Below, piece after piece: positions 3,877 to 49,016 of a stretch of DNA of 64,000 nt (positions are counted from its first letter, which is position 1; each line of letters opens with the position of its first letter). The notes beneath the pieces were generated by a model. It did no database searches and was not told the origin of the DNA. It saw nothing but the letters and a program-made list of their open reading frames with translations. The position numbers were made by a program, and so were the translations under genes. The stretch is from Alentia gelatinosa (taxonomy: Eukaryota > Annelida > Polychaeta > Phyllodocida > Polynoidae): positions 108,917,125 to 108,981,124 of the forward strand of contig OX465581.1 of the NCBI GenBank assembly GCA_950022655.1, given 5' to 3'.

Positions 3877-4507
3877 TTTATCCTACCCCTAATAAAAACG
3901 GCCCATAGGTATAACATAGGCAAATTTTATGCGGCATGCCTGACATAAAGTGCGATTTATGCCTCTAGGGGCATTAAAAAATCGACCAATCAGCGACCAG
4001 ATTGTGAGCTGCTCCGAAAAAAGTTTCGGTTGGACTCAAAAGTTTCGGTTGGACTTCGGTTGGTCGTTCAATCAATATTTATAGATTAGTAATCCAAAAG
4101 CTTAGAGACGGGGTAGGATAAATACGAAACCGAACTCGAGTTAACGCTTCGCGTAGTAATACACGACCTTCCCGTCGTGGCATAAACACTGACAAGTCTA
4201 ACTCTCATTCAGTTTCTACTGAATAATATGAAGAGACGTCACGAGTTTGAGTCTGGGTTTATTTATGTCACACATTTTGTGGGCTCCATAATTTCACGAG
4301 TCGAAGACGAGTGATATTGCAGAGCCCACAAAAGGAGTGACATAAGTAAATTCAAACTCAAACGAGTGGCGTCTAGATTTTATCCTACCCCGTTTCCACG
4401 AATTTTGAATATTAGAAAGTAGTGACATAAACAACACTTTATGTCAAACCCGTGACATAAAGAAGTCCCATGTTAAGCCTATAGCGTTTTTTATTAGGGG
4501 TAGGATA
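3877..4507 (+). mobile_element. Nested-hairpin element A1 (two modules around a hairpin)
   Basis: The fullest member of the hairpin family. The left end TATCCTACCCCTAATAAAAA (from 3880) is repeated inverted at the right end (…TTTTTTATTAGGGGTAGGATA to 4507). Each half is a module bounded by TTATCCTACCCC/GGGGTAGGATAA: an inverted module at about 3879-4123 and a direct one at 4380-4507 with TGTTAAGCCTATAG. Between them sits a nested hairpin: TTTATTTATGTCAC (from 4258) pairs with GTGACATAAGTAAA (to 4350), TTTTGTGGGCTC pairs with GAGCCCACAAAA, and the apex is CACGAGTCGAAGACGAGTGA. The word GTGACATAA occurs at 4337 in the stem and again at 4422 and 4452 in the module. No ORF. Target duplication not clear. 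Confidence 0.75.
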
Positions 4508-4513
4508 ATATCA

Positions 4514-4789
4514 TGAAACATCATGAAATTTCATATGAATGTTTATATGGCATGAGTTGTCTTCGTGGAATGATATCACAAAGTGGAGCTGAGTGATATC
4601 TGTAGCAGAAGACAATGAATGCCATGTAAACAATGATATGAATTTGAGTGATGTTTAGATTTTTTTCTACCCTGTCACATGTTTTTAACTTCATATGTTA
4701 CCAGTGGCATATAAATATTTTATGGCATAACCGTGGCATACAGTCACACCATGTTAAGTCTATGGAGATTTATTTGCGGGGTAGGATAA
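4514..4789 (+). mobile_element. Nested-hairpin element A2
   Basis: Starts 6 bp after A1. An imperfect palindrome at 4514-4658 has several stems: GAAACATC with GATGTTT, ATATGGCAT with ATGCCATGT, TTGTCTTC with GAAGACAA, GATATCAC with GTGATATC, and apex AAGTGGAGCTGAGTGA. The module follows (about 4664-4789) with ATGTTAAGTCTATGGAG and the end GGGGTAGGATAA. The word GTGGCATA occurs at 4704 and 4733 of the module, and ATGGCAT/ATGCCAT occurs in the hairpin arms. Non-coding; it lies in the exon d to exon e intron, just past the exon d donor. Confidence 0.7.
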
Positions 4790-4840
4790 CAATTCCTACA
4801 CGACATATACATATTCATAAGTGGGTATGCCAATACTTAC

Positions 4841-4952
4841 ATGACTGTATTGATGCCGGCCAATTGTTGGAACATCTGAAGACTACAGCCAATGATGAGC
4901 GCCCTCCTAACGGCCGGCGTTCTCAACATCTGCCAGATGATCGGCGTGTGAC
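4841..4952 (-). CDS. SLC2A13: HMIT-like transporter exon d (start of helix 7)
   Basis: The acceptor is CCATCTGCAG before 4952 and the donor is GTCAT/GTAAGT after 4841. Two bases complete a Ser codon, then 36 codons: [20 protein letters not shown] and [16 protein letters not shown], ending with AT of a split Met. [11 protein letters not shown] holds the Q-Q-x-x-G-x-N motif of helix 7, which lines the substrate path in sugar porters, and RRALIIGC precedes it as in HMIT. The intron to exon c is 701 bp; the intron to exon e is about 2 kb and holds two hairpin elements and a SINE-like repeat. Confidence 0.93.
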
Positions 4953-5539
4953 CTGCAGATGGAGCCACCCACGTTAATACTGACATCTAGTGACGAACAC
5001 AGGAACCAACGGAGTGCACACCAGAGGAATTGTTTCTTACGGCTGAACGGCTTTTAGAAACATGCCCTTGTTGTATGTAGCGACTGTTTTTATCAAAGTT
5101 AGATGTGGATGGAGACCATAGCCTGATGTGATTGAACAAAGGTAGTGGTCTTTGTAGCTGTGACTAGCGGCTTGACAGAGAGATGTAGTGTTTAATACCA
5201 TCGGAGTGTGGGTGTGGGGAGATTTCAGATCATCTTTGTAAAAAGCTTTGTAAGTTCGTATGCCTCTCAGCAAGGATCAGGTAAGACATGCTTCAAGCAT
5301 TTCCCTCACGGCCTACCACCAAAAGTATTTTGAGACCATGCTCCGACTCATCACTCGTTAACTAGTTAAGTCTGAATGTAACAAAACTAGTCTTCTAGTA
5401 CAGATATGAGGATAAAGTCTCCACTCCAGTCAAATCATGCTGCTATTTTATTCCCTATCACAAACCTTTACAACGGGGTAAGCCATGGGCATATTTTCCA
5501 ATTGCTTATACTAAAGGATTAGAGATTAAAACAGAGGAG

Positions 5540-5648
5540 ATGCATCTCAAATTAATGCTTTCAAAAATCATTCTGCGTTAACGATCCAGGCTGTGTTTGC
5601 CCGGTTGTTTCCGCGGAAATCTTTTTTGAAACATGCATCTCAAATTAA
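5540..5648. repeat. 16-bp direct repeat flanking a 77-bp segment next to the exon c donor
   Basis: ATGCATCTCAAATTAA occurs at 5540-5555 and 5633-5648, separated by 77 bp. The second copy is 3 bp from the donor dinucleotide of exon c. The length is typical of a target-site duplication of a small retro-insertion, but the enclosed segment has no poly-A tail, only a short TTTTTT near one end. Confidence 0.5.
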
Positions 5649-5653
5649 CATAC

Positions 5654-5750
5654 TTCTGGCTTCATTCTCTATCTCTGCCTCCTCACAGCTGTGCCGGATC
5701 TTGTAGAACTCATCTTCAATATCCTCGTCCCCGCGTATCCTTTGCAGCAC
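5654..5750 (-). CDS. SLC2A13: HMIT-like transporter exon c (helix 6-7 loop)
   Basis: The acceptor follows a pyrimidine-rich tract ending CTGTTCAG, and the exon starts at 5750. The donor is CCAGAA/GTATGT after 5654. It encodes 32 residues plus one base: VLQRIRGDEDIEDEFYKIRH followed by SCEEAEIENEAR. This is the charged cytoplasmic loop between helices 6 and 7; in HMIT the same place has a Q-(M/I)-R-G start followed by an acidic stretch. It has no membrane segment, as expected. The neighbouring exons fit by phase (0 in, 1 out). A 16-bp sequence next to its donor is repeated 93 bp further into the intron. Confidence 0.88.
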
Positions 5751-6610
5751 CTGAACAGGATAAAAGGTTAAGATTTCATATGATGGTGTCAAACACTTTG
5801 TACCAAACCAAAATATGCATATACGCATGACAGTTGGCGAAGAGGCCTGTAATATATATATTGCATAAACTGTGCTGTAAGAATGTGATTAAATGGGAAA
5901 TGAATAAATAAATATCGGAAATTACGCTTCCTAACATGAAACATGATATTGACGTCACAACATCGCGCAATGTACCGTCCGCTCCAGGCGATATTAATTC
6001 ATTCTATCGAGGTTGCGGTTCAGTGCACAGTCCCTTCTACGTAACTCCTCACAAGTGAGGTTCAATGCTTTACACTGGGTCTCATCTTTAAGTAATCTTA
6101 GACTGGGATGGGTGGAGAGGAACACAGAAGGCATGGTAAAGGTTTGAAAGTCATTTAGATTTCGTAAGCATAAGGAGCCACAATACAGGCTCTCTTCACC
6201 TTTGGGTGGCACCATCGTGCAGATATTATTATATACCCGTGCATGAACTTATTGTAAATATAAACCGATGCTATGGGTGTAGTCATCGCAATTATACTGC
6301 ATACTATGCCCTGCAGCTTTGTACAGGTCACCTTTTTTATCGTTTACTTAGACTGGTCAGAGCTCAGCACAATGAGGTGCTGGTTTCAATGCACGGCCAG
6401 TGCGGTTAGACAAATGCGCTCTCTAAATCATGTTTCTGCTCCTTTTTTAATGATCAGCGGCAAATTTTAAAACAATGGACAGCTGTCCATTTAGGCGTCC
6501 CAATACATTTCAAAATCTCCCCGTGACGGCAAAGAGTAGACCTATATATCAAGTAAGGTAGTTTAGGTTGGACGTAACAGAATTATTATAGCTTAGATAT
6601 GGGAAATTAA

Positions 6611-7013: not shown

Positions 7014-7336
7014 TTAATCGATAACAACAAGATCTCTCACTGAGATTACTCAGCGGTGGACCACACAGACAGAATGGAGGCCACGTAACTAAGTAATTTC
7101 TCAAGGTTGTAAACAAGCGGATAATTTCACAGAGACAACAAGTGGCGAGTAAGCCTGTGACATCACCGGCATGAGCAACTTCCATAAGGTTTGACCAGAG
7201 ATTCAACAATTCAAGCCATATATATGGTATCAGGCTTAGCTCTTGTTGCATATGCGATTACAAAACCACCCAAATACCTTGTGTTGTACGAATTCATCGA
7301 ATCGAACTCAATAAGGGATTCTGGATAGGCAACATG

Positions 7337-10267: not shown

Positions 10268-10547
10268 TTTAGAAGGAAACCTACGAGATGAAAAGAGCTT
10301 GGTCCGTACTGCAGAGTTATTCACGAAGCGAAGCTGAGTGAAGTACTCTGTGTTCAAACGAGGTGGAGTGCGAACAAAGTTCTTTTCATCGAGTGGGTTT
10401 CTGATTTTATCTCACCCCGTATAAAATTATTCATTGATAAAATGAATCACCTAATTAGCCATTGAGTATTAGGTACACGAACCTCATGCCCGTGGAGTAT
10501 GACTTGCTAATGTTAAGTCTATGGAGAAATATACCGGGGTGAGATAA
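10268..10547 (+). mobile_element. Nested-hairpin element A3
   Basis: Hairpin at about 10268-10406: AGGAAACCTACGAGATGAAAAG pairs imperfectly with CTTTTCATCGAGTGGGTTTCT, with apex TTCACGAAGCGAAGCTGAGTGAA. The module follows, bounded by TTATCTCACCCC (10409) and GGGGTGAGATAA (to 10547), with AATGTTAAGTCTATGGAG. The module ends differ from those of A1/A2 (CTCA instead of CCTA) but still match each other. Confidence 0.7.
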
Positions 10548-10604
10548 GAATCATAACTCCATTTTATCGATCAGCAGGAAAAGGTCATATAGGATTATAT
10601 CTAC

Positions 10605-11456: not shown

Positions 11457-11819
11457 TTATCCATCGTATACAAAGACCCAGTTAAAGTGTATGGGGACTC
11501 AGTAAACCACTACCCATTGTATAAAACCTGTCAGATATCATAACTGTCGTATACGGATTCAAATCTGTGGTATACAGCCTTGGCATACGGGAAGAATAGT
11601 CCCTTTGTGCTAGAGAGCAAAGAAATAGACCCTATTGTTTTACCCATTAATATGGCAATTACTGGGTTTAATTCATTCGAAAAGATGGATAATAAATGCA
11701 ACAAAAGATTGTTTTGTGGACAGAACGCTCTGTGAACTACTCGAGGTTGACGTTGTATTATACGAGCTAGCGCTCGTGTATTACTACGCGTCAACCTCTC
11801 GTAGTTTACACCTGTGTCA
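11457..11819 (-). mobile_element. Nested-hairpin element B1
   Basis: The module at 11457-11692 is bounded by TTATCCATC and GATGGATAA. A hairpin follows at 11732-11819, in which CTACTCGAGGTTGACG pairs with CGTCAACCTCTCGTAG and TATACGAG with CTCGTGTA around GAGCTAGCGCTC. The order shows minus orientation relative to A1-A3. GTATAC is repeated through the module (about 11469, 11548, 11570). It is about three-quarters identical by eye to B2 (21357-21659) in inverse orientation. Confidence 0.65.
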
Positions 11820-12403
11820 CCCACCACTACCACCTCAAGCCATACTCTGAACTTATCAGACCATAGATCCATCTACCCCATTCGACTGATATAATGGCTG
11901 ATGAAAGATGTTTGAATAATATACCGATAAAAAAACCTTAATGAAAGTCCATGTGGAATCTTTTGAAAGAAACGGACTGCAGTTACCTCAGGTCGAATAG
12001 CACGGGCGGCCAAGTAGCTCATATCTGCTCTGACCCACAAAGAAGACACGGGGAGCTACTCGCATGCACGTCTTTAGAGCAGATTACCGGTCACAGTACG
12101 GAGTGTGGGGGTGTGGCAGGGGGTGACACCTGACATATTAGTCTCCAGGGGCGGCTAGACAACGGGCTGATACACTGCCAGCATGGGCCGGCTCAGACAG
12201 GCGGGCGGTAATCAAGATGGGATACCTGGGACAAGGGAGTAGGCCAGGTAAGGGCTATAGATCAGTTCTGTCGGCGAAACCGTGCAAGACCTGCGCTAAT
12301 ACACAAAACAGAGCCTAGAGGCGGTCAGATCGCTGCGTAATTGTTGTATAAGTATATAAACTTATGGCTAGAAACTCCTTGCTTATCTATCATTGAACTA
12401 CTC

Positions 12404-12427: not shown

Positions 12428-12819
12428 TAGTACCACCATGGAGTTGTCCCATTACAATAAGTCCATATAAGGAATAGAGTAGACCCAGTAGCCAATGACT
12501 GCATTCGCAGCAAACCCCGACCTTCACCCTGACCTCCTTACATGATATTTTCTAGCGCCTTGGGACGTAGACATCAGTCGAGAGTTGACCTACAATCTAA
12601 TGGGCCACAACCACCCTCGTAACCTCAACATGTAAGTAAAGATACAATTTTAGAATATTTAAATACTTTAAATAATAACTGATAAATAAGTAATTGGTAT
12701 TGTTTATCAAAATTGATATTAGATAAAGTGGTTGTGCTTCATGGAGACGAAATTTCAAGGCGAGTCGTGTATTTGGAGCGAGGTCCACAACACTAAGCTC
12801 AATTCCCCACCAAGATTAA

Positions 12820-13233
12820 GAGGGGGCGTCCACCAACCACAACAAGGCTGCGACACGCGCCAACAAGAAAGTTCCTATCGGCTCCTTGTCGCAGCCTTGT
12901 CGTGAGGAGGGGAGCTGTCGTGAGCCCTTGTCGCAGCCTGTCGGGAAGTGCACACTCCACCTAAATATTCTATCGTAGACCTCTGCGACACGCCATGACA
13001 CGGCTCTAAAATCGAACATGTTCGATTTTGTCGTAACCTTGTCGGAAGGCCTCCGACATGCCCCCAACAAGCTTCATGTCGCAGCCTGTCGTGGCCTTGT
13101 CGTAGCCTCTTGTCGGGAACTGTGGTCCACCAACCACGACAAGGCTACGACAAGGCTTCCAATCGTAGAGCTGTCGTGGACCTTGTCGGAAAGCCGTTGT
13201 CGCAGCCTTGTCGTGGTTGGTGGACGCACCCCC
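12820..13233. mobile_element. PIF/Harbinger-like foldback MITE H1
   Basis: TAA at 12817-12819 and 13234-13236 flanks ends GAGGGGGCGTCCACCAACC and GGTTGGTGGACGCACCCCC, which are near-perfect inverted copies. A TWA duplication with GC-rich ends fits PIF/Harbinger MITEs. The interior is made of repeated CGACAAGG and its complement CCTTGTCG, plus a palindrome AAAATCGAACATGTTCGATTTT at 13008. The right quarter (about 13120-13220) is itself a hairpin whose ends CCACCAACCACGACAAGG copy the element ends. No ORF. Confidence 0.7.
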
Positions 13234-13236
13234 TAA

Positions 13237-16200
13237 AGAAATAACGAAACGTAATGAAAGCGATAGTCAACACAGGCGATTCTGAAGAAAAGTACAGATG
13301 CATTGTTAGGCTATCTGAGAGTACACCCAGGAGTTCTACCTCAATTCCCTTTTCTTTGTTTTACATTATTATCACCAAATAACACAAAGGTGAAGAAGGA
13401 CATGTCAAAGGGAAATAACACAGGTCAGTATATTCTGATCTCTCAAACCGTTCCGCGCGCTATGTCACGTCATAAATCACAATACCCTAAATGTTACCAT
13501 CAACACCTGAACCTGAGTCCATCCTTTCATGGTAACAGACCTCAAGTCAACACAGGAGGAGTGACCCGGCTCCACACGCTTCTGAGCAGGTCCCTGGAGA
13601 TGAGGGCCACACAGGAGGTCCCCTCATGCACCTCTATGTCCGTCCTTCCACCCGTCAGAACCGCCCTGCCATTCCACCCCATTAACAAAGTCAGAGGTCA
13701 AGGTGGCGTGTGAAAGGGGTCAGGGTAGCACAACAGTGCCTGTCAGAAACCAGTTAGGCCGTGGTGAATAGTGTTTGGACAATGCCCGCTGGAGGTAGCA
13801 TGTAGTGGACAAGGCATGGAGAAGTTGTGTAATTGACAAGGATTCTGGGGTTAGCCTGCTATAGAGAATGTGTGGGTCACCGATGGCCCCATCTTCACAA
13901 ATAGAGGTCAGCTGGTGCCTCCGCCCATTTCATGCTACGTCGGCAACGCTATAAACACCAGGAACCATAATGGCAGAGAGGACACCTTTTCTTGGTGGCG
14001 TCCGTCGCATGGTTTGCCTCTTTCCAGTGTTCTTGTATTCTTTTTAGACTCCTTACAAGAAATAATGGGTTTTAACAGCATGTTTGGGATGAGCCATATG
14101 ATAAAAGCTTGATAAAAGATATCGTGTAATTATATGTCATTTTGAATCAAGTTCTTATTCATGATTCATGGCAGCTATATTATTACCTACACAGTGGTTC
14201 CCTTTACGTATTGCCTATTTTTTTTATTGATTTTATCATAAAAGATGGGCATTATCTATATCCAGTGCCTATCTAAAGGTATTTAAATGTGTCAGTGGAG
14301 GGTAGTAGAACGTTATATGCATGCCAGAACCAATTGGACAATAGCTCTTGTAGGTGGTTCATATTTAAGACATTATTGCCTGACCAAGGATCAGCCAGTC
14401 TAGTCTTGTAAGGAGTCCTGCAGGCGTGTCACAGACTATGCTCAACTTCTGGGCCCAGACGGGAACTCAATCAACTCGCCCTAGACCGAGTTGTCCACGG
14501 AATATGCATCTATCATGAGGCCCCATACAACAGCACAGCGTGGCTGCGTTGTCGGACATTTGCTGGGAAAATCCAATCTCTTGGGTTCATAGAAATCTAC
14601 CGTGTTGAGCTTGTAAAACTTTCCACAATGGCACATTGGTAAATGATCAGCTATTGTACCACAATGAGTCCTACTACGACCGTCAAGGCCCTGAATTACT
14701 TTTACTTGACAATTCTCATCATCAACGCCCACCATACACCATGTATATGTAATTGTGAAACTAGGCGCCCCTGTTTTGACACATCATTTCTGACCTGACA
14801 TAAAGTTATACCGATTCATAAATAATGCAATGACCTTAGATTTGGTGAATATTTGAAGTTATGCTACAAATTGTACACCGGGACTGGTAAATTATAGCAC
14901 AGTATAATTTATCCCCATTGCGAGAGTAGATTGACATCTAGCGATAATGGGGCTTGTACACGAAGACCCTTTTCTGTACCTCATACAAGGTTTATCGATT
15001 AATAATTTTTAAGTCTATCCGCTAAGACAGTATTAGCCATCCATAAGGTCGTACATAAGTGTTGAATAAAGTTGACCAACATCATCCCTGGGTCTCTATA
15101 GCATAAAGAAAAGGGCCTTCATGTACGATCCTAGATAATTAAGCGGGCCACCGTTTTCATTTGTTCTCAGTGTGGATTTAAGACCTTTTATCCAGGTATC
15201 TACCTCACCCCATCCTAGATCTATGTTCTCCCATCTCCCCGTCTCTCTGCCTTGCCCTGCTAAACCGCGCACCCTATCTCCACCCTCTCTAAATCAGGCA
15301 ATCTCACTAAAACTACGTCAACACCCCCACGGCCCCTTTTACCTGGAGAGGTGCATTGCGGCACAGAGCCCAGCGTCTTTGATCTTGCTGGCCTGAACCC
15401 AGCCATCAAGCAGCAGCCATTTGGGCCTTTCTCCTCCAGGGCCTAACACAAGGGCCCGAGGCCAGCCAGGTGGCTCTCCAGGGCTGCGTGCTGACTTGGC
15501 ATTTTGTTAAGGAAGCGTGAACTGCAGATTTGAACCTAACTCTATCGATTCATCGAAATATATATATAAATTTGACATGATTCTAGTAGAATTAGTGCTA
15601 GTTAATATGAAAATAATATTAGTGAAATTACGGACGGGATGTGAAACCGCAACAAAAATAGATAACATAAATCACTTATCAGAGTTCTTAAAGCTTTCCT
15701 AAGAGCATTTCTAGTGGGGAGCCTTTGATCATGCGTAGCTGTATCAAACACATACCAAACGAATATACCTGTCTTTCCAGGCGAGAGTGTATGACAGTCT
15801 ATTTAAGTTTGTACTCGATGAACTTGCGCTTGCCATGAACTCTTATTCCGTATTCTCAGCATCTGTCGGGTGCACATCCACCACCACCACACCCATCACA
15901 CTTTATCTCACTTCTCCTCACATGTCGCACTATAATCACATCCCATGCATGTTACTTACATAATATTTGTTCTTTATATAAAGTCTATATACGAAGCAAC
16001 CTTGTTTAGTTGCCATTCCTTCTGTTACTGTTAAAGGGGTGAAAAGGAATTGAGAGTAATATGGCCTGGCAATTGCTAGAGTATTCATCCTCATTAAAAT
16101 ATAACCATTTAAATGCTTCACATGGTGAATGAAAGTGAATAATAAAACAATCTTAAATCTTCATGGTCCTGCACTGTATGTACAAAAAAACAATAATCAA

Positions 16201-18556: not shown

Positions 18557-19466
18557 GTAGGGAATGAGCTATGAATCGATGAATTAGTAAGTGAAGAAAA
18601 TAACTTTTTCTTCGTGTGTTTTATGTATATGATAATGGTAAAACGTAGTGAGTGAACCCGTAGCGATTCCATTTTCTGTCTTTTGTACATTAACTATGGC
18701 TCTCCATCTCTGGCGTCGTGCAGTAGTTATAGAACAAAGGACCTCGAACGGCAATTGCTATGAGCCCACTATCTACATTTTCTCTTCATCATTTTGTGAG
18801 GAATAGTATGGATACTCATGATTGACTACATGCTATTTTCTAATTCGTAGAAACGCATGTCCCTCTCATTATTATAATAACATTCTTAAACCAACCATCC
18901 TTGCACAATCCTGAAACACAAGATATGGTTAGAATGCATGCATAGAGAAATTCACCACAATAGTTAAGGTAAGAGTTATGTAAGAAGATATTGCAGAATG
19001 AATTCTTGAAGTCAATTTTATTGATCCGAGTATTGATGAGTACGTGGTACATTGAAAGTAAGGAGTTTGCTGACAGAAATCCAAACTTAGGATTGTAAAA
19101 AGAAAGGCCTTTAATACGAAGAAGTAATGTGTGTATGTCCATGTTAAATGATATATCTTAATTTGCGACTGGTTTTCCCCAAACAAATCAATTTTGGACC
19201 AGCTTCCCCCTCTAGACTGGCCACTAGAGCTACAATAAGTTGGGTTAAAATCCAAACCACCTTGACACACAAGCTGTAAGTGTCCGTACCTGTCCCTGCA
19301 GAATTTATTTGTGACCGAGACCTTTGTTTGGGGAGTGAGCTATTTCCCACTCTTGCAGCCATTTTCACATATTCATATTTCCTCTTGAGTGTATTTAGAA
19401 TAAGATAACCATAAAGGTAGAATTTAGTAAGCTATAAATATTTGTTGATAAGTATTTCTGCTCCCA

Positions 19467-19682
19467 GAAACCACCTATATAAAGAATTCTTGATCTGGGA
19501 GTGACAATTCCTGGACACAACTTGAATGGGTTTCTGAATTTATCTCGCCCTTCACATCGACTAACGGGCTAACATTTGTGATATAATCCCCCATTGAATA
19601 TTTTTCCTAAATATCTCACGGGCGTTGGATTCGAGTTCCCAATGTTAAGTCTATTGAGAAAAAATACCAGGGTTGAGATAAA
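19467..19682 (+). mobile_element. Nested-hairpin element A4 (short hairpin)
   Basis: A reduced hairpin (CAGAAACCACCTATATAAAG with CTTGAATGGGTTTCTG) leads to a module bounded by TTATCTCGCCC (19540) and GGGTTGAGATAA (to 19681), with AATGTTAAGTCTATTGAG. ACGGGC is repeated within the module. It seems a truncated member of the A family. Confidence 0.6.
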
Positions 19683-19689
19683 ACCATAC

Positions 19690-20010: not shown

Positions 20011-21016
20011 CGGACACGCAGTTAGGACGAATGGACTGGTTAAATGATGGTAGCTCGGTGAATGGAAGTTATGATCGCATGGGAATGTCGTCATTCATAA
20101 TTACTGATTGATAAACTTCTTTTGTGTCAAGAATATTATTTGAAAATTATTATACGTAAGTAATTGGTTGTAGGGAACATTCACCCATACCTTTACATTT
20201 ACATGTATGTATGGTGCCAGGTAGTTATAAGAAATGCAAATGGTGGCGATCTTCAATATTTTCCTGTTATTATTCTAAGTGGTAGTTTACCAATTATAGA
20301 TATATATCACTGGGAGCGCAGTGGAGGAGAGGGAATTGTACAGATTTGAATTGATGATCTGAACGTCGCAAGCTAACAACTGGGGGGACTCTTGTAGAGA
20401 CACAAAAGGGACGGGGGTTTTAGAGCGGGACTACCTTGATACGTTAACAGCAGGGGTGAAAATAATGCATGCTGTGAGGGAAAATCGCTCGGATGGTGTG
20501 TCAGTAACTCAAGATTAAAGATGATTCATTTATCAGTTTCTGATATGGAGGTCGCTGGTGGACCCTTTCCATGTGAGAATACATCTAGGCATTATTTACC
20601 GAAAGGACGAGAAAGCTAAGACATTATGTACGTTAAGGGTGAGAGTACCTTAAGGCATTCATGACAGATTCGGCAATCTCGCCCGCTCAGGCATGCTACC
20701 TATAGATCATCCGTGGCCCTGTAGACACTGCTACCCATCGACATGCTCGCTAGTACAGGAATAAACGTATTATCCAACCAGTTATATATGATATAGATTT
20801 AGTATCGTATCAGATGCTCATATTCATACACTATACAGCGATGGTTTTGAAATTGAGGAGCGCTAGGCACAAGTGTAGAGTTTACTGTTCTTCATTGCTT
20901 TTTACACCCTCCCTCAGTGCTGCTCCTTGACCAGTAGGGGTGGGGTACTTAATGATAATGTCAGCAGCAGACTGCTATTGTATGGGTATGGGATTTTGTG
21001 GCCACATACTATTGTA
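20011..21016. other. No gene recognised
   Basis: Intron sequence without supported features. Confidence 0.4.
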
Positions 21017-21313
21017 AAACTGGATGAGTTTTAATCTTGGCCACTATATGCCATGACTGGAGTTTGGCATAGTGACTTCATGAGGCGAAGCCGAGTGAAG
21101 TCCGGAGACAAAGCTCCAGGAGTGGCATGTGGTGGCCAAGATTAGAACGAATCAAGTTTTGATATTATCCTACCCTGTCTCCTCGTTTTTTCAATATTAC
21201 GTGATAACAATTCTGTAAAGCACTAGTGGCATATAAAACTCAGTATGAGAGTCAGCATGGCATATGGAAACTTAATATTAAGCCAATGGGATTTTATATT
21301 AGTGGTAGGATAA
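21017..21313 (+). mobile_element. Nested-hairpin element A5
   Basis: Hairpin 21017-21164: AATCTTGGCCAC pairs with GTGGCCAAGATT, CTGGAGTTTG with CAAAGCTCCAG and GACTTCA with TGAAGTC. The apex is CATGAGGCGAAGCCGAGTGA. The module runs 21165-21313, from TTATCCTACCCTG to GGTAGGATAA, with ATATTAAGCCAATGGG. The 8-mer TGGCATAT is at 21227 and 21258 in the module; its exact complement ATATGCCA is at 21046 in the hairpin. The module closely matches A8. Confidence 0.75.
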
Positions 21314-21356
21314 TGATTCATACGTATACCCCAGCGTATCAATAGACAATAAACGA

Positions 21357-21659
21357 TGGTTTTGTGGACAGGCGGCCGTTAACCACGAGAGGTCGACGCA
21401 TAGTAATGCTCGAACGCCATCTTTTCAGATAAATCAAACCCAGTAATTGCCATATTAAAGGGTATAACAATGGGGACCTTTTCTCTGCTCTATAGTTCAA
21501 AGGAACTATTTTTCTGTATGCCTTGACTTTGAGGCCGTATACCGTAAGATGTGAATGCGTATACCAGTTATGGTATCTGAGAGGTTTTATATAATGGGTC
21601 GTAGTTTACCGAGTCCCAATACATTTTCAATGGGGTCTTTGATTACGTACGATGGATAA
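21357..21659 (+). mobile_element. Nested-hairpin element B2
   Basis: Homologous to B1 in inverse orientation. A half hairpin (AACCACGAGAGGTCGACGCA, 21380 on) is followed by a degraded CCATCTTTTCAGATAA boundary and a module ending GATGGATAA (21651-21659). It shares with B1 the stretch around TATGGCAATTACTGGGTTTA, read here on the minus strand. It lies 43 bp after A5. Confidence 0.6.
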
Positions 21660-24353
21660 TGATATCAAAGTCTACCTCTACCGTCCTAGAATATTACACA
21701 TACCTCATTCCTAGATAGCTGTACCAGACTTAAAAGCAATAATTGATTAATCAATATGTAATTCCTATCTGGGCCTATTCAGTATGTCATTTTATAAACA
21801 CATTCCTGTGAGAAATAACTGTTATATATTCATCAGAAAGGAAATCATAAGAGTTTCTTAAAACATCTGCCACCGTAACATTACCCTGCTTCCTCATGAT
21901 ACTAGTGAGGAAGTAGTGCTTGGGGCGCATTGTTTCTACCCTCACCACCGTTACACCGGAAGTTAGACATATACAACCTTACGACAGGGCAATAGGGTAG
22001 GCCCCTGGTGTCTACTGGCCGAATCCTCTCCGGAGGATAAGTCTATAGCTGAAGAAGGTGGCCGGAGGGTCTGTGGTTGACCGTGCCAGAAGTAACCGTG
22101 ACTCGGGAAAGTAATCTGGACAAGGTGAAGGTGGCAGATGTGATCAATAGCATACCCAGAATAGATGCGCTACCCTCGGGCACCACCCCTCGTGTCCCTT
22201 TAGGTGATTCGGACGTTCTGCTCCGGGGAGAGACGAATCTCTACAGACAGCGGACATCCGCCAGGCCTAGAAGTGAGAGAACGGAAGTGCAGTGCCGCAT
22301 CGATCTGTTCTCTAAAGAACTTTGGTCTCAAGGTGGGTGGAACTTGGGTACGGGTGCTGTTAAAGATGGTGGTAGGGTGCTTTGCGGCTGGGGCTAACCT
22401 TAAAGTGTGGCAGTACGGAGGGTTGACATTTGCCTCGAAGGTAACGGTTTTAAAGCGGCCACCTACCTACCAAGAGGCGCTCCCTGCTTAAAATAGAACA
22501 AACTCTTATAGTTTATGCACAATCAATACAGGTTAGAGCCGCTCGTAATGGACCGTGGGCTAATATCCTTGCTGTTTACTATCTGTGGGAGCCATTCCAT
22601 ATATTGACCCAAATAATGCATGCTGGCTTACGGTTTTTGCAGGTCTCCCTATATTGTAATATCGATATATACATCTCATGCTGCTCTGCAAATACAATAC
22701 TGTCATTTATTTCTACAGGCTGAGACATACTAACAAAGTCCAGACCCCCTCCAGTTTAGTAAACAGAGGCGATATTGCTGTCCAGTATGTGGTATCTCTG
22801 CTGTTTCTTCTAAATCACCCCTGGTTTACATAGCAATGTCACATAGCAACATAAGCAGGACAGCCAAACACAAGTAACCCTTTTAAATCTATTTCTATAA
22901 CCAAGTTAAAGAGTAGTTCCGAGTAGTATATGGAGCACCAGGATTATATACTTGTACATGTTGGGCTGTATTGCGGATAGGTTTCGATAGACCTCAGATC
23001 AAACCTTGTAGTAAAGTATGTTTTGGCTTTGGTATCAGGTCTGCCTTGCTTACTCTGCTGTCCAAGGTTGTAGGAGGGTACCGGGTAAAAGCGATGGTCT
23101 GTGCACTTCTCACTACAGTTCAAAAAGAAACATATATTTCTTTTATCAATTTCATTGATCAAAAGATTACAAATTTCCCTATGTTGTCGGGTAGGCATTT
23201 TTGTACATAATACTCTCTGTAGATTGACAATTTTTCCTCTTGTGTTTGCAGCAGTGAGGGACATTCCAGATACGGCACATCTAAAATAGTTCATGCAACC
23301 ACTTTGAATAATCGGAGACCTCGAAAAGACAGATTTCACGATGTAATCATATTACGCCTCACTGTTATGCCTTCATAAGATTGATGAGCGAGAAATACGA
23401 GAACGCTGACAAGATTCAGCCCATTATACCTAGTCCTACGTTGTTAGGAAACCGCTGAAAAAGGAGCACTATGCGAGTTTGCAATATAGGTGGCGTGCGG
23501 CATACAGTCAGCTCTAGGTAGATCAATAGTAAGACGCCATCTTCGGTCAATTCCCGGGCTGAATAGTGGCGGGTATGTGGCCACCGCGATCCATCAACTA
23601 CCACCAGGAAGCAAAGCGAACGCCACGTACCCAACGCCGAGAAATATCGTCTGTCATTTGTCACCGAGACTTCGCGGCGTTATGTTTCCCGCGCAAAACA
23701 AGCAGACGACATTTTAAGCGGCGTCCACATGTCGGAGCTCAAGGAAGATTTGTAGGTTCGATCCGGCGTTAATTGCCTGGCCACTGTTCTGTGTGGTTCT
23801 ATGCCAACTCGTTATACCCACCCCCAGTACTAAAACCCTTAAAGCATTGTACTACTAGACCTTCCCTATAAAAATACAGTTCACCACATCACTATCATTA
23901 ACAGATCTAACCTACTTCATTTACACCTTCAACGCACTGGAGTTCTCTTATATCATTTAAAAAATTCTCTCAATCATCAGTTCTGATTCACCATAATATC
24001 TATTTTGAGAACCAGTAATTATTATTTCACATCTAAGTTCAACAAAGTTCAGATCAATAGTCATCTGAATTGCTCACATTAAATAGTACTAAACTGTATG
24101 CTATACCCTGAACCGGTTGAACTAATCAGATGAAAAATGTCATGGAAATAAATGCTTCCAATGTACTAAATAAGAAATTGCTAGATTGAAATAAAGATGA
24201 CGAAATCTAATGAATTTGTCGTTAGGCACGAAAAAAAATAGGTGTGTTTCCGGCTACCCCCTTCCTAGGAAAACCTCACTCTACCTAAAATTTCTCTTGC
24301 CTCAACAGTGTGTGCGACCCGTAATTTACAAGATCTTATAGATAAATGATATT
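21660..24353. other. No gene recognised
   Basis: Two moderately GC-rich patches (about 22030-22480 and 23470-23770) have open frames of up to 106 codons (plus 22077-22397). No domain, splice context or repeat that I recognise. Confidence 0.35.
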
Positions 24354-24436
24354 ATCATATACCTATGTCCGAATGTCTATTAAATACTGCCCGCTGCTAG
24401 GGGTGCAGTAATAATAATGTTCGTGCCCGCTGTGAC
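24354..24436 (+). repeat. Dispersed repeat C, copy 2
   Basis: Homologous to 18482-18556; see that entry. It lies 70 bp left of a large hairpin (24507-24623), which suggests the repeat and the hairpin may belong to one element. Confidence 0.45.
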
Positions 24437-24506
24437 TGCGACTTTGTATGTCATTAAAATGTCGTTTTTTTCACCAATTAAAGGTGTATGATATTAAGCA
24501 AACGTG

Positions 24507-24623
24507 TGTAGACGAAATGGTTCTCGTTCTCGGTCAGTCTTCGTTTTCATACTGCCTTCCGCCTATGGCGCCAGGCAGTATGAAATCGACGACTTACCTC
24601 GAACAGGAACCGTTTCGTCCACA
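24507..24623. repeat. 117-bp nested imperfect palindrome
   Basis: GACGAAATGGTTCTCGTTC (left) pairs with GAACAGGAACCGTTTCGTC (right). Further in, TTTCATACTGCCT pairs with AGGCAGTATGAAA around a GCC/GGC apex. The architecture recalls the A-family hairpins, but no A-type module follows. Confidence 0.7.
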
Positions 24624-24683
24624 GTAAGGAAGTTTCCTAATATTAATTTTTCAAAAAGAAAAAGCTAATTTGTTCAATCCTTT

Positions 24684-31800: not shown

Positions 31801-32529
31801 TTGACCGTTCTCTTATCTGTTTAAGGGTACCACTTATCCAGGTTCGACTATACCCCGATGGGTCTAGAATGCATTATTTACCTTTAGTTCAATAGAGACC
31901 TATTTTCTCGATCGACATAATCATATACCTGAGCTTGGCATAATGTGATATCCCCGTTCACATCATCATCTTGGATATATACCGAATAGTGGATACTCCA
32001 CCCTTTTGCCCGTGCTCTAGATCTTCTTCCGTCGGACACGCTTCCTGTATTTCTGCAGACTTTGGGTTAAGCTTTCAGTACAGGCCTTCAACATTTCAGG
32101 AGTCTTTGGCCTAAGCTTTGAATACATGTTTCCAGCATTTTAGCGGACTTTGGGTTAAGCTTTGAGTACACGACTCCAGCATTTCACCAGAATTTGGGTT
32201 AAGCTATGAGCGCGAATGGCGATTACAGTGCGAGCTCCATTGCAGTGTGTTTGTTTTTGGGGGTGAGGGTGGAAGGTGAATATCAACAGGACATATATAG
32301 GGAGAGATATCTGGGGCGGTAAGATATTCCAGAGGAAGTGTTTGCACCAGGGGCTTGTTAAAATTAAGACGCCGAATTTGGAACGATTCAGTCATTCGCC
32401 TTCATATGTAGGGAACGAACTCCAACAATTAAAGAGTACACGACTCCGGAGGAGAGGTTATCAATTTAGAAAAAAGGTGAGGGAAATGTTTTCATGTATA
32501 GATGACATGTTAACGTAACGAAGCTGCTC
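25801..32529. other. No gene recognised; one palindrome at 30218-30245
   Basis: Long intron stretch without recognisable exons. AGATCATTCATACATGCATG plus its continuation forms a 28-bp near-perfect palindrome at 30218-30245. A CRE/E-box rich patch (CACGTGACG, TACGTCA) lies near 26650-26730. A GC-richer stretch is at about 30250-30720. Confidence 0.35.
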
Positions 32530-32808
32530 TGATAGGTTTTGGTCAAAGTCGTCGTTCTCCACGAGTTTGATGCGGTGTGATATGAACGAGGCAACAGCCG
32601 AGTGATTATCACATAGCATTCAATCGAGTTGCAGAATGACTTCTTTGACCAAAACGAGTTACTATCTGTATTTATCTCACCCCTGTACACACTAAAAGAA
32701 TGGAAAACAGGATATAGACCATGGAGAACGGACTGGAATACTTGTAGGGGCATGGAGAACGAGTTCCCAATGTTAAGCCCATGGACATTTATTCCAGGGG
32801 TGGGATAA
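32530..32808 (+). mobile_element. Nested-hairpin element A6
   Basis: Hairpin 32530-32668: GTTTTGGTCAAAGTC pairs with GACTTCTTTGACCAAAAC and GATGCGGTGTGATA with TATCACATAGCATT. The apex is AACGAGGCAACAGCCGAGTGA. The module runs 32672-32808, from TTATCTCACCCCTG to CAGGGGTGGGATAA, with AATGTTAAGCCCATGGAC. The 8-mer GGAGAACG is at 32723 and 32754 in the module, and its exact complement CGTTCTCC is at 32553 in the hairpin arm. Confidence 0.75.
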
Positions 32809-37400: not shown

Positions 37401-37707
37401 AAATCTGTAATTATAACACGAAAGATGGGAATATATTACCCAGCCAGTCGAATAAACCAAAATGGCAGGAAAATTTCCTACTTAACTGAAATTTTTCTTC
37501 CTTTATAGATTTACTGTATTAAAAGACATCATACTCACCTTTGTACTGTCCTGTACTGTCCTGTAATGTCTTACCCAGTTTTGAAATACTGACCTCCTAT
37601 GGAGTGTCATCGCTCTGTATATACTGTTGTTTACAGCTGCATGTAAAAACGCCAAATACACTGGTGAATGTATGCTACTTATCTGAATACAAAAAAAAAA
37701 AAAAAAA
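34403..37707 (+). mobile_element. Non-LTR retrotransposon (LINE), nearly full-length ORF2, inactivated
   Basis: One coding region with an apurinic-like endonuclease and a reverse transcriptase is followed by about 280 bp of 3' UTR and a run of 17 A (37691-37707). ATGACTG occurs at 34403-34409 and again just after the A run (37709-37715), a possible short target duplication, so the 5' end is tentative. It lies antisense to the host transporter gene in its giant intron. Domain order and motifs fit the CR1/L2/Jockey-like group; I cannot fix the clade. Confidence 0.85.
34527..37410 (+). pseudogene. LINE endonuclease-reverse transcriptase, one stop and one frameshift
   Basis: The first block (34527-35039) has the endonuclease start: LNVNIHSLYAKLDQ, TESWL, SVYRPP. 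An in-frame TAA at 35037-35039 interrupts it just before GDFNVN. The same frame then continues through the endonuclease SDH motif (SDHIPIF, about 35237) and the RT fingers (NWRPITVIP, YGFMPGRST) to about 36320. At the A-run 36317-36324 the reading shifts to the 36310-37410 frame with FVDLKKAFDS, GVPQGSVIGPTLF, YADD (36604-36615) and YLGI. The catalytic motifs are intact, so the copy is fairly young. It would copy LINE RNA by target-primed reverse transcription. Alternative: the stop and shift are sequencing errors in homopolymer context, likelier for the shift than for the stop. Confidence 0.9.
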
Positions 37708-40614: not shown

Positions 40615-40617
40615 TAA

Positions 40618-40866
40618 GGTCTGGCGTCCACCTACTACCATATGACTACGATGCACCTCAAAATCGCGTGGGAATGTCACCTAATATCGGGGCAGTTAAC
40701 CACGATTAGACACCGATAAAAATCCCAAACAATGTGTAGTGAATTGCCTTGTCTAGACGTATGTCTACGATTTTGCACCTTCCCGATATGGCACCGATTT
40801 TGACATTTTGTATCGGTGCCGTATCGGGAGGTCTACGATTCTATGGTAGTAGGTGGACGCCGGGCC
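40618..40866. mobile_element. PIF/Harbinger-like foldback MITE K1
   Basis: TAA at 40615-40617 and 40867-40869 flanks ends GGTCTGGCGTCCACCTACTA and TAGTAGGTGGACGCCGGGCC. The interior repeats CGATATGG-like words and their complements (CCGATATGG, GTATCGG, CTACGAT). Same family as K2 (53055-53336). The outer GGCGTCCACC is shared with H1 and H3. Confidence 0.75.
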
Positions 40867-41896
40867 TAATTAGGTTTTATACATGCTCCGTGATTAGGTT
40901 CTGTAGAAGGTATCCATGGTTTCACATCTTTGCCAAACTATTCAAGATAAACATTTCCGATAAACGATCTGTCTATCACTTAGCAAATTACAGCTTAAGG
41001 CTGTGATTGGCTAACAGGACTATCTATTCCCTAGCTCGAGCAGACTAGATATGGCCAACATATATACAACTATGATTTGCATCTTACAGTAATCGTGTCC
41101 CAAATATTCTTCTATAGCCTTGTATTTGACAGTGGCTATTCGTCCAAGTTCTAGTACATTTCTGAGATGGAAATGGTTTCATAGACCAGGATAACGTAGA
41201 TCTTGTGAGGTAGACCTTTGTTTTAGCATATGGAGTCGGGTAAAAGATTAAAAAAGAGTGTAAATGAATGTATCATATCAACGTGCGTCACCTACAGATC
41301 GTAGTCTTTGTAGTTACGTTGCCCTCTTGGTATTGAATGGGGATGTGATGTTCAACGTGTTACACATAACCCTGTAAGGACCTATTATGATGAATAAATA
41401 AAGAAAAAAACCGAAAACCCTGTTAGGTTCGGCTCACCTTGCACACATGTGTCTAGTCACACGTGACCTCAAAGACGACCTCTCATTGGCAGACAATATT
41501 TGGCACGTGATCGTGGCCTTACGGAGACCTTTCACCTCTCTGTGTCGCACTCCCCCAGCGCACCCAGCGCCATACTGACCTCCCCCTCCCTTACCGCCCT
41601 TTAACACCAATTAAACATAAATGAGGTACGGGAGAAGACGGCAGATGACAGGGATCAGGCAGGATTATATATTGTAGGTAGATTTGGAGTTACAGGATCT
41701 TTCAAATGGAGGTAGACATTTTGATTATGGTTTTCACTTAGCTACATATCCAGAGTTTATGAAAAAGTACAAATGAAAATAACTGAAATGGTCCCCTCAG
41801 TTTTACATGAACTGTAGGCAAGTACTTTTCCGAAATTAAAAGTTTGTGGTATTTCTGTGCATAAACATAAAAAAGGAGGGGGACTGAAAGTATTGA

Positions 41897-44017: not shown

Positions 44018-44277
44018 TTATCCTAGCCTGGTATAAACGTGCATAGGCTTAACATTAGGAACTCGTACTCGACAAGCTTACGAGTACGGTAACTCTTCCT
44101 CAACGGATAATGAACAGATAAATATTGCAAGGCTAAGATAAAAACCATATTCGTGCATGGTCTGAGTCCCCATTCTCTATCTCGTTTGGAGTGCCTCAAA
44201 ATATCCACTCGGCTATTGCCTCGTTCATATTACTACGCACTCCAATCTTGATGGCGAACGAGGACACATACCATACA
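44018..44277 (-). mobile_element. Nested-hairpin element A7
   Basis: Inverted relative to A1. On the plus strand the module runs from TTATCCTAGCCTGG (44018) to CAAGGCTAAGATAA (44141), with CATAGGCTTAACATTAGG, the complement of the family 15-mer. A hairpin follows to 44277: GCATGGTCTGAGTCC pairs imperfectly with GGACACATACCATAC and TTTGGAGTGC with GCACTCCAA. The apex, minus strand, is AACGAGGCAATAGCCGAGTGG. It sits 110 bp from exon a. Confidence 0.7.
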
Positions 44278-44387
44278 CTCATCAACTTCTTTATTAATGT
44301 ACCTATGTGCATACATTAAGGTGAACGTCAATCCCCCAAACGCAGTATGTGCAGTGAGGCCCTCTAGTGTGAAACTTGCACACTCAC

Positions 44388-45044: not shown

Positions 45045-45168
45045 TTATCCTTCCCGTAATATAAATTCCCATAGGCTTAATATTGAGTTTCCGTATGCCA
45101 CGCTGACTGGCATACAGAGTTTTATATGACACTAGTGGCATACAGAATTGTTATCACGTAATATTCCA
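45045..45168 (-). mobile_element. Nested-hairpin element A8 (module only)
   Basis: On the plus strand it runs from TTATCCTTCCCGTAATATAA with CCATAGGCTTAATATTGAG, through TGGCATACAGAGTTTTATAT, to TTATCACGTAATATTCC. It matches the A5 module along nearly its full length in inverse orientation. No hairpin arm was found beside it, so it is a truncated copy. Confidence 0.65.
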
Positions 45169-47424
45169 ACTGAATCGAAATATCAGATCATGAACTTCTA
45201 GCAAACAAGAGGTAAGGCGCCGCAAACAATTTGACACATCATTCTTATTCAATCATTGACAACATTACATATACGGATACACCTGAAACCATCTCCAATT
45301 CTATTTTTTTTCTATGAGTGGCATCCCATCTTCAAGTTACCAAGATAAAAACCTAGATAAAAAGTGTTTTCCTTTGTCATTGACGTACAATAATGTTCCT
45401 CACCGAGTATTTTTGGTCTCACATTATTTTCCAGAAACAGTTTTGCAAATTACTCTTCCGAGAGGAACTGTTATCAATGATGGATTAAGTCTCAACTCAC
45501 CTCTTTGTCCGGGGAAAGGAACACCCAACAAGGAAAGGGACGGGAATTTGGTTTGTAAAGAGCAGTGTTAGCTTATCTAATAACCCTGCATAATGTCGAA
45601 CATTATGCGAATTAAAAGAACATATTTTGAATGTACTACAAAATCTCAAGCATATTGAACATTATCTAAGTGTCCCCTTATAATTTTGTATATCTTGTCC
45701 TCTGATACGAAAATCATGGTAGTACCGGTACTTCATAAATGAACTGGAATTAGGAAGCCTTTATTATGGCTCGCATACAAAAAATCAAAGCTCCATGAAA
45801 GATAACAGATTTTTTTATCTATGCTTTTCTGTCGTCAAAGCGTGTGCAATGTCTAAATCTTTTCAACACATATTGAAGTTCGTCTCTATCAGGACGTATA
45901 ATAGTCTAGCAGAAAACTGAGACTTATTATTTCAGTTATGTCCTGGCTTTTATACGTCGCAAGCTTCATTATGACCACAACAATGTGGATAAGCGGACCG
46001 CGAGGTTCCCCAGGAGAGAAATCGGCCTTTCATCCGTCCAATGACCGGTGCATGAAATGGAAGCCACAGTAGGGTTGGTTTCCTGCCCCTTTCACAAGGC
46101 AGGGGAAGGGGTTTTTTGCGCATGCTTCGTACCAGAGCGGTGGGCCACGTGACTTTGCTTTAATAAAATCGTCAATGTGCTTCAGAGAAAAGGAAACCAG
46201 GCAGAGAAAATATCCACGATACTGTGCGGAACTGAACACCGGGAATTCTGCGAAGTAGTATGACACAGAAAAATAACTGTGAATGACGCGGGGAGTTTTC
46301 TGCATGGAAGGAGAAGAAAAATGTTTCTCCATGGAAAGCACCTCCGGGTCCAGGCAACAACCAGATTCATTGCATCAAAGGCGAGACATCCAAATAGCAA
46401 TTTTAGAAAGATTGCATCAAAATAAGTCTGAAGAAATCACCAGTCATACTCGCATGAAAAACGACTAAGTCGAGCGAACATGTCCCTTTTTTTTATTACG
46501 TACTGTAAGAGGGTACAAAAGCGGTATCTGCTTTAGCAGTTATTCTGGCTCGCTATCCACGATGCAGGCAACTAGGTCGAGTCCATGTAACTGTCTTCTT
46601 CCAGTAATTATTTACATACATAAATTACTTATATATAGTGATGAATGGGACTAATGAAATGGGATAAAAATAGAACCTCCTATTTTGAGCATGTAGGATC
46701 GTGCACACAAAGTCTCTTGGGCTTATTCTGATTACATCTGGTTATCTACTTATTTAACTAAAACCCAAATCTGCACCATGTTTCACAGACCATATCATAT
46801 CATACTTTCATCATTTTTTCGCACTATGTATAGGGTGGTGGGTCTGATATTATAATATTTTATATTGTTATATTGTTATACAATATATAAACCGCTTACA
46901 AAAGAGTCACCTAAGGTGATTGAGCATATGTGATATGGATCTAAATCTAGAAGTACCAGCAGACATGCCATAAATAGAAGTCTATCTCTGTGATGAATTT
47001 ATGCGCTAATAAACAACAACAAAAAATATATTTATTGTCCCATAGGGTCATATTCATGAAAAACACTTTTGTGGAAGGGCAGTATGTTAACACCGTACTG
47101 TATGGAGCTCTAACGACATTAAAACAACCCTTCCCAAGATGTATGTACAGAGGCCTATGTATGTACTGATGTATGTTATCACTTAGTCGTTAACGGAGCT
47201 GCAATCCATCGTACTACTGCTGACATAGCGCAAAAAGATGAGACAGGGCCATTCCCGATGGGGCCACCACTAATACTATATTTAGGTATTCAAAAGTCTT
47301 TGAAAACGTCAGACTCCCCTGGGCTCTTCCAGAGGAGACCCAGCTTTGAATTCTGTGGGTAGATTCTTAAAAGAACCCGACAGAACAACCGTGCTTGAGT
47401 TCCCCGTGAATAAAAGTTGGGTCA
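45169..47424. other. No gene recognised
   Basis: AT-rich intron sequence. Open frames of up to 103 codons (minus 46341-46030) show no recognisable domain. Confidence 0.4.
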
Positions 47425-47895
47425 ACCAACTACGACAAGTCTACTACAAGCGCCGACAAGAAAGTTCCAATCAATGCTTGTCGCAGCCTTGTCGTAAGAA
47501 GGGGGGCTTTATGACAGCGTTGTCGGGGCGTGTCGGGAAGTGCACACTCCACCAAAATTAACTATCATAGACCTCTGAGACACGCTCCCGACATGCAGTG
47601 ACACTCCACGACAAAGGTTCAGTCGTAGGAAAAATCGAACATGTTCGATGTTGTCCTAACCTTGTCGGAAGGCTCCCGACAAGCTTCCCAGACGTAGCCT
47701 GTCGTGGCCTTGTCGTAGACTCTTGTCGGGAACTGGGGTCCACCAACCACGACAAGGCTACGACAAGTCCTCCAATCATAGGCCTGTCGTGGACCTTGTC
47801 GGAATGCCATTGTTGTAGCCTTGTCGCGGTTGGTGGACCCCAGTTCCGGACAAGAGTCTACAACAAGGCCACGACAGGCTACGTATGGGAAGCTT
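47425..47895. mobile_element. Foldback MITE H2, with an inverted duplication at its right end
   Basis: Homologous along its length to H1 (shared CGGGAAGTGCACACTCCACC, ATCGAACATGTTCGAT and many CGACAAG/CTTGTCG words). It extends beyond H1's right end: 47829-47895 is an inverted copy of 47683-47741, so these arms and the CCACCAACCACGACAAGG hairpin between them form a palindrome of about 210 bp. The left end (GGTCAACCAACTACGACAAG) is degraded, and no TWA duplication was seen. Confidence 0.65.
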
Positions 47896-47902
47896 GTCGG
47901 GT

Positions 47903-48032
47903 GATTCAGTGTAAAGGCGGGCGTCCACCAACTACGACAAGGCTACGACAAGTCCTCCAATCATAGGCCTGTCGTGGACCTTGTCGGAATGCCATTGTCG
48001 TGGTTGGTGGACGCCCGCCTTTACACTGAATC
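47903..48032. mobile_element. Foldback MITE H3, 37-bp near-perfect arms
   Basis: The left arm (47903-47939) GATTCAGTGTAAAGGCGGGC + GTCCACCAACTACGACA is repeated inverted at 47996-48032 with one mismatch. The 56-bp centre matches the terminal hairpin of H2 (TCCTCCAATCATAGGCCTGT). At 130 bp it looks like the minimal unit of the H family. Confidence 0.75.
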
Positions 48033-48629
48033 GGGTTTACTGTCGTTGCACGTAAAAAGATACGCGGTATAATTGTAAACCAGATTATCCCGATGTTGAA
48101 TCCAACATGGCCGCAGCGTGAGAAGATGGCGAAATGGTACCTTCTATTGATGTCGATTGAATGGCTGTACTCCATACATCACAGTGTGACGTACGGCCAT
48201 ACATATGACATGGGTATAGGAGCGGGCGGTTTATGCACAAGATACAGCTACAGGTGCTACCAGGCAAAATTTCTTTGGGTATTCAGAGCACCTGCCGTGT
48301 AGGTTTATTATATTCATTTCCAACCTTCATAATTCTCCCCTCTCACGGAGCTCCTCTGTGCTGGTCCCGAAACACTTAACAAGCAGGCCGGAGACAGCAA
48401 TCAGCGACCCGATAATCTATGACGTCACGGCAGCTGTGCCTTGCATCATAACTTAGCGTCGTGATGATAAATGTAGGGGAGTCTTGCAAAAGAGTTTCGG
48501 TAGAAATCATTTGGGTTTATCACAGGAGGAAAGCGTTGACAACAAGCCTGCTGGTTGAAGATCACATTAATACCAGTAATATCTTTCAGTATATTAGGCG
48601 AGCAGGCCCAGCATTTGAAAAAGGAAGAA

Positions 48630-49016
48630 TTAGTAGAAACCAAACGAGAGCCTTGTCAATGTTTATGCCATGATGGGCAGGTTGTGTATTACTACACTCA
48701 GCTAACGCCTCGTGTAGTGAGTAGCAGACCTGACCAGAGTGGTATAAACATTGAGAAGGCTAACTCGAGTTCAGTTTCGTATCCCATCTCACCGATATGC
48801 AGAGAAAATTTTGTAAATATCCATGTTAGTAGCGTGTTGACACTCATCGGAGGATGGCCGCATCTATCAATGCTGCTGGATCTACTTTCGTTATCTCGTC
48901 CCCGATTGGTCTGTTTTTTATTCACCCCGGTGCATAAACAACACTTTATTCAAGGCTCCGTCAGATACACTGAGTCAATGTTAAACCTATGGCGTTTTTT
49001 ATTATGGGTAGGATAA
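48630..49016 (+). mobile_element. Nested-hairpin element A9
   Basis: Hairpin arms AGCCTTGTCAATGTTTATGCC (48649) and TATAAACATTGAGAAGGCT (to 48761) enclose ACTACACTCAGCTAACGCC + TCGTGTAGT, whose complement reads CACGAGGCGTTAGCTGAGTG like the other apices. The module ends ATGGGTAGGATAA at 49016 and carries CAATGTTAAACCTATGGCG. Its left boundary (TATCCCATCTCACC, 48780) is degenerate. ATAAACAACACTTTAT is shared with A1. Confidence 0.65.

Follow-up and report, generated by a model that had tools for sequence, protein, structure and literature searches.

Hairpin-bearing units of Alentia gelatinosa as probable non-autonomous Crypton transposons

A 64,000-nucleotide stretch of the genome of the polynoid annelid Alentia gelatinosa (contig OX465581.1, positions 108,917,125 to 108,981,124; hereafter the window) contains 14 short units in which a nested hairpin lies outside one of two complementary borders. 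With a probability of about 85%, these units are non-autonomous Crypton transposons that are moved in trans by a Crypton tyrosine recombinase. They comprise ten A-type units (the main type of an earlier, sequence-only reading of this DNA), two B units with a different module, and one unit each of types C and D, which have other borders (Table 1). The hairpin end of unit C (hairpin plus border) is 91% identical over 180 nucleotides (nt) to that of L111, a genomic locus with DUF3504 and QRICH1-like open reading frames (ORFs), and its other end matches the other end of L111 with 89% identity over 44 nt. Between the matched ends lie 3.2 kb in L111 and 127 nt in unit C. Unit C, sharing both ends with a DUF3504 Crypton, has thus arisen from such an element by deletion. 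The sequence-only reading had suggested a search for an autonomous partner, tyrosine recombinases included, and a tyrosine recombinase is indeed what the search turned up.

Kinship with tyrosine-recombinase elements

The Phage_integrase profile yields 5,316 first-look candidates in the 1.23-Gb genome, of which 150 were scored (150 of 150 above the cut-off) and 30 loci were read; 18 loci, plus L114, were extended at the hairpin side. All 13 catalytic ORFs tested (13 loci) score above the cut-off for both DUF3504, the Crypton domain of animals, and Phage_integrase, and an upstream exon is QRICH1-like in all three cases tested (above the cut-off in one). Ten of the 30 loci show a hairpin close to their end, some 1.2 kb beyond the exon for the recombinase, and 16 of the 18 extended loci have a hairpin at their own end (10/10 of those preselected for a visible hairpin, 6/8 of the others). 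In 8 of 10 loci, the gene lies between the borders TTATTATAYACC and GGTATATAATAA, with about 3.2 kb from one border to the other; L122 and L099 have no exact left border of that pair. Full Crypton elements are about 3.4 kb long.

The A units resemble these Cryptons in the kind of left end, hairpin size, hairpin tip and target. Read hairpin first, Cryptons begin with TATGGAGAAAC (L122) or TAGAGGGAAACC (L099), and A units begin similarly with TATGGAGAAACC or TATAGAGGAAACC. To judge from these likenesses, A units are likely to be Crypton relatives. Alternatively, they could be a separate type of element that shares an ancient end design with Cryptons and is moved by another enzyme, as might be suggested by the finding that A borders and the A-type 3′ box (see below) occur as own ends in none of the 30 recombinase loci. 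This is quite improbable given that left end, hairpin length, tip and target are all alike and that a Crypton directly abuts an A unit. L114 was considered as an autonomous A element and rejected, since its extension revealed a separate, complete A unit of 293 nt.

According to the accessible parts of PMC3212892, which introduce the first non-autonomous members, neither direct nor inverted terminal repeats have been found in Cryptons of animals. The elements described here agree with the CryptonA and CryptonI groups in their DUF3504 tyrosine recombinase, the lack of duplication and the great excess of short derivatives over full elements, and differ in having complementary borders, an outer hairpin of about 150 nt, repeated words and a target motif (PMC3212892, as far as its accessible text goes). 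CryptonS elements of oomycetes end in TATGG, and subfamily 159 and Crypton L122 likewise have TATGG at their left end; CryptonS differs in its terminal direct repeats of 5–6 bp, and the accessible text mentions no hairpin for it (PMC3212892). The word "hairpin" occurs 0 times in PMC3212892, and among the matches listed in the literature searched, outside which most subscription papers lie, there is no description of such hairpin ends. The earlier claim that no described family has this layout therefore holds in part: the end layout seems undescribed in the literature searched, but the Crypton superfamily itself is described. Vertebrate DUF3504 genes such as QRICH1 and ZMYM2 derive from Cryptons, according to the accessible parts of the same source (PMC3212892). 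Since terminal repeats had not been recognised in animal Cryptons, there was no way to get at how they move; with their ends, their target and a very large collection of diverged natural sites defined, the recombination site now becomes testable.

Architecture, subfamilies and target site

The A consensuses have their parts in a fixed order: the nested hairpin leads via a linker to the border TTATCYYACCC, after which come a module containing repeated words and the border's complement. Six subfamily consensuses, built from 27 copies chosen by subfamily, all have a hairpin of 152–155 nt and a module of 128–159 nt; in the window, 120–240 nt separate the borders. The hairpin-first strand starts with TA (mostly TAT), shortly followed by GAAAC or AAAAC. 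After this left end, the hairpin consists of a 9–10 bp stem, then three tandem G.A steps parted by stems (some steps are degenerate), 3 bp and a tip loop, which is GAA in five consensuses and GGA in one.

This layout recurs in the window well above chance. GTTAAGYCTATGG with up to two mismatches has 12 matches against 2.98 expected (12 was reached in 0 of 100 shuffles), and GGGTAGGATAA with up to one mismatch has 14 against 1.09. Ten copies are detected by a profile of the 60-nt 3′ box (the next match has E = 0.34), and a hairpin lies directly upstream of nine of them (damaged in L1, degenerate in unit 3), that of unit 9 being lost. Across eight window units (unit 10 excluded), the border stem comprises 86 Watson–Crick, 7 G.T and 0 A.C pairs of 96, a score equalled by 0.4% of all re-pairings. 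B1 and B2, perhaps the B pair of the sequence-only reading, are 80% identical over 246 bp. Unit D is the least certain: a single 8-mer is common to its hairpin and module, which have the word GGCAGTAT in common, and its border pair (10/11) is matched by a comparable pair at 9% of random positions.

Genome-wide, the anchor 13-mer with up to one mismatch has 100,652 matches compared with 2,362 for the reversed control, an excess of about 98,000. The view of the sequence-only reading that one abundant architecture persists through variable sequence is thereby borne out, although its count of eleven copies in the window rises to 14, with D the least sure. Of the first 100 anchor matches listed, 88 were read, and 10 of the 12 unread ones are spaced like a tandem array; 82 of the loci read match a unit consensus and six match none. 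Among these 82, 49 extend to near both ends, 40 reach both consensus ends exactly, and 31 are truncated at the 5′ side, all copies having been found via their 3′ anchor. At G000:C1:3976028-3976970, ten anchor matches are spaced by multiples of 62 nt, forming a tandem array that is perhaps a satellite grown from a unit. In L001 and L037, an unrelated inverted repeat (GGGAGCTGTTTCAAAACGTGG...TTTTGAAACAGCTCCC) has the anchor in its loop. The anchor plus border has no matches in viral and prokaryote contigs, and the tip 19-mer has one match in viral contigs, with no unit box around it.

Mean pairwise identity within the six subfamilies is 72–89%. Two young copies, L019 and L024, are 99.3% identical to the consensus. 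Between subfamilies, a lenient aligner gives 0.74 for hairpins and 0.79 for modules, compared with 0.75 for shuffled sequences in both cases. The low identity between copies noted earlier is thus a property of comparisons between subfamilies and does not apply within them, and the apparently fast change of sequence probably arises because there are many subfamilies, each with its own words. In many modules a word of about 10 nt is repeated and also occurs in the hairpin arm adjoining the second G.A step. In 12 window units, modules share 37 8-mers with their own hairpins and 9.8 with swapped hairpins (p = 8e-5); units 2, 3 and 8 share zero. Two module words, picked by hand, agree within eight units at 68 of 96 positions against 53 (p = 3e-4).

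No target-site duplication is seen, since a direct repeat of at least 4 bp within 2 bp of both ends occurs in 5 of the 40 full copies. The dinucleotide TA occurs at both ends in 26 of 31 cases; it lies inside the element ends as drawn and is by itself indistinguishable from a 2-bp duplication. The left flank of A units follows RTA[A/C/T] (T in 31/40, A in 31/40, TA at −3,−2 in 24/40), and Cryptons likewise have TA at −3,−2 in 8 of 10. On the right flank of the 40 full copies, a weaker TAY at +8 to +10 echoes the left-flank TAM at a spacing of about 10 bp and may, to judge from the sequence, be a second recombinase contact. Units also abut other units: exactly against a GATAA-type border in 1a/1b of the window and in L078, and by eye in L024 (the neighbour's end being altered to GGTAG), in L090 (at the inner border of an inverted unit) and in the unit following L048; Crypton L099 stands exactly against an A unit.

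A miniature inverted-repeat transposable element, or another transposon with terminal inverted repeats, is rejected as an identity for the units, target-site duplications beside terminal inverted repeats not having been found in the 40 full copies; in agreement with the earlier reading, which saw no standard ends of this kind, the ends are two complementary borders, one of which has a hairpin on its outer side. An IS200/IS605-like identity is likewise rejected, as the Y1 transposase has 0 matches in the genome and matches in 5 of 14 control genomes.

Helentron/HINE and Helitron2 elements share with the units an inverted border pair, a hairpin outside one border and the lack of duplication, and differ in enzyme, hairpin size and folded strand, as described in the accessible parts of PMC4067079, PMC3627910 and PMC7492417; Helitron genes are nearly absent from the present genome. 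The units could accordingly be non-autonomous Helentrons or Helitron2 elements in reversed layout (terminal inverted repeat, body, inner inverted repeat, 3′ hairpin) that multiply by rolling-circle replication, a reading with which the order of parts (as far as those sources describe it) and the absence of target-site duplication in 40 full copies agree. It is nevertheless very unlikely and mostly refuted by unit C, which belongs to a Crypton. Moreover, the unit hairpin is several times longer, its more stable strand is the opposite one (9/9), and the 1.23 Gb contain one match to Helitron_like_N (PF14214), whose surroundings, out to about 10 kb, hold no clear unit box (best E 0.02). The sole RepHel-like Helitron locus found in the genome, G000:C7:36821968-36825621, is broken across several frames.

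Strand bias of the hairpin and a proposed recombination pathway

Simple decay of the hairpin arms would make G.T as frequent as A.C, and A.G as frequent as C.T. The nine module-bearing hairpins of the window depart from both equalities on the hairpin-first strand (A.G 45 : C.T 7; G.T 35 : A.C 11), with G.G 11 : C.C 1 and T.T 14 : A.A 7 in addition, and so do the six consensuses (A.G 40 : C.T 2; G.T 16 : A.C 4). Tandem G.A steps occur at corresponding places on that strand, which folds better than its complement in 9 of 9 units by both RNA and DNA energies. Among eight distinct Crypton hairpins, A.G exceeds C.T by 28 to 5. Five separate non-unit inverted repeats of the window show no bias (G.T 10 : A.C 8; A.G 6 : C.T 6). 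They remain from 11 initial controls (G.T 18 : A.C 16; A.G 9 : C.T 18 over all 11), three of which (11731, 24507, 56871) proved to be units and some of which overlap at 12.8–13.2 kb. Other palindromic repeats at 12816-13237, 40617-40867, 47419-48032 and 53054-53340, with GGCGTCCACC/GGTGGACGCC-like ends, are long inverted repeats without strand bias that served as controls.

The bias could instead reflect a folded RNA, with units being transcribed and the structure of the transcript kept. G.T wobble is tolerated in the border stem at the counts given above, the bias is restricted to one strand, and 5′-truncated copies are frequent (subject to their discovery via the 3′ anchor), all as a folded RNA would lead one to expect. 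Triloops of the GAA and GGA type are, however, stable in DNA rather than RNA, and all six consensus tips are of this type. DNA energies give the same bias in 9/9, autonomous relatives encode a DNA recombinase, and neither a tail nor a duplication is seen, so that an RNA origin is unlikely. No known RNA family is found in the window by Rfam at gathering scores.

An autonomous Crypton has a recombinase gene (a QRICH1-like exon and a DUF3504/Phage_integrase exon) flanked by complementary borders, beyond one of which lies a hairpin of about 150 nt; the window units have kept the hairpin, both borders and 120–240 nt between them. The repeated words of module and hairpin arm are presumably bound by the recombinase, supplied in trans, which would then excise the element, probably as a circle, and join it directly 3′ of a short target, RTA[A/C/T], with zero duplication; the GATAA border of another unit is a favoured target. 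Since tandem G.A steps favour the folding of one strand, the hairpin probably acts in the form of one folded strand, like integron attC sites.

The attC sites of bacterial integrons are used by a tyrosine recombinase as one folded strand, are poor in conserved sequence and rich in structure, can stand in head-to-tail units, and have extrahelical bases and a coding cassette. The units differ in having tandem G.A steps, and any single-strand action in them is putative. A more specific proposal is tentative, with chances somewhat below even: animal Cryptons may recombine a folded single DNA strand, the substrate being a GNA-tipped hairpin of fixed size whose strand is selected by tandem G.A steps about 24–31 bp apart. 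Integron attC recombination would then have a counterpart in eukaryotes, and the words of each subfamily would act as a specificity code, which changes under a constant fold. Provided that the folded strand is indeed the substrate, structure-guided recombination of single strands is not confined to bacteria.

Several observations weigh against the Crypton reading or its single-strand step. The 150 scored candidates and the 30 loci read include no autonomous element bordered, as the A units are, by TTATCYYACCCC; six of the loci (L093, L094, L099, L106, L114 and L120) have an A-type box nearby (E under 1e-3), but these boxes appear to be separate neighbours. Of the extended loci, L094 has no hairpin and the hairpin near L102 is oppositely oriented, and beside L114 no hairpin was found except that of a neighbouring A unit. 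The G.T excess is absent from the eight Crypton hairpins (G.T 8, A.C 6), so that the strand case there relies on G.A and T.T, and these hairpins show one or two full tandem G.A steps, not three. The strand difference by DNA energies is small in two of the nine units (L1 and unit 7), and word sharing is weaker on the six consensuses (p = 0.04) than on copies (p = 8e-5).

Units and other features of the window

Table 1. Units in the window, with positions counted from its first nucleotide
Unit	Type (subfamily)	Positions	Strand	Remarks
L1	A	3878..4226	−	module 3878-4121, damaged hairpin 4122-4226; 3′ box match; border stem 12/12 paired; hairpin base with tandem GA
1a	A (128a)	4227..4508	+	hairpin, border TTATCCTACCCC at 4380, module, border GGGGTAGGATAA
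1b	A (128b)	4509..4789	+	adjoins 1a, zero bases between
2	A (142b)	10270..10547	+	
B1	B	11457..11835	−	hairpin with tandem GA; border TTATCCATC/GATGGATAA; hairpin-side limit approximate
3	A	19413..19683	+	degenerate hairpin; left limit approximate
4	A (149)	21010..21313	+	hairpin 21010-21163, module 21165-21313
B2	B	about 21340..21659	+	hairpin partly lost; left limit approximate
D	D (weak)	24353..24640	−	hairpin with tandem GA; border TATCATACACC/GGTATATGATA; limits approximate; not clearly part of the earlier finding
7	A	32525..32808	+	left limit approximate; module word TGGAGAACG twice, its complement in hairpin arm
8	A	44018..44300	−	border TTATCTTAGCC/GGCTAGGATAA, both sides altered relative to other units; hairpin-side limit approximate
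9	A	45045..45165	−	hairpin lost; 88% to unit 4 module over 121 bp
10	A	48630..49016	+	left limit approximate; right border without matching left one; hairpin tip inverted
C	C	56864..57213	+	border TTTACTATATACCC/GGGTATATAGTAAA; beyond the range of the earlier finding

The earlier statement that the units contain no ORF agrees with the Pfam scans, which gave no encoded protein in the window units. Of the 33 ORFs of at least 100 amino acids in the window, 16 were scanned, and two only have Pfam matches, both to the reverse transcriptase of a long interspersed nuclear element (LINE; 35070-37410). These belong to a non-LTR (long terminal repeat) retrotransposon at 34527-37410, a LINE whose reverse transcriptase is split over frames. 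A GC-rich region (62%) at 62069-63333 contains a 21-nt tandem repeat and an open frame of 404 codons without a Pfam match.

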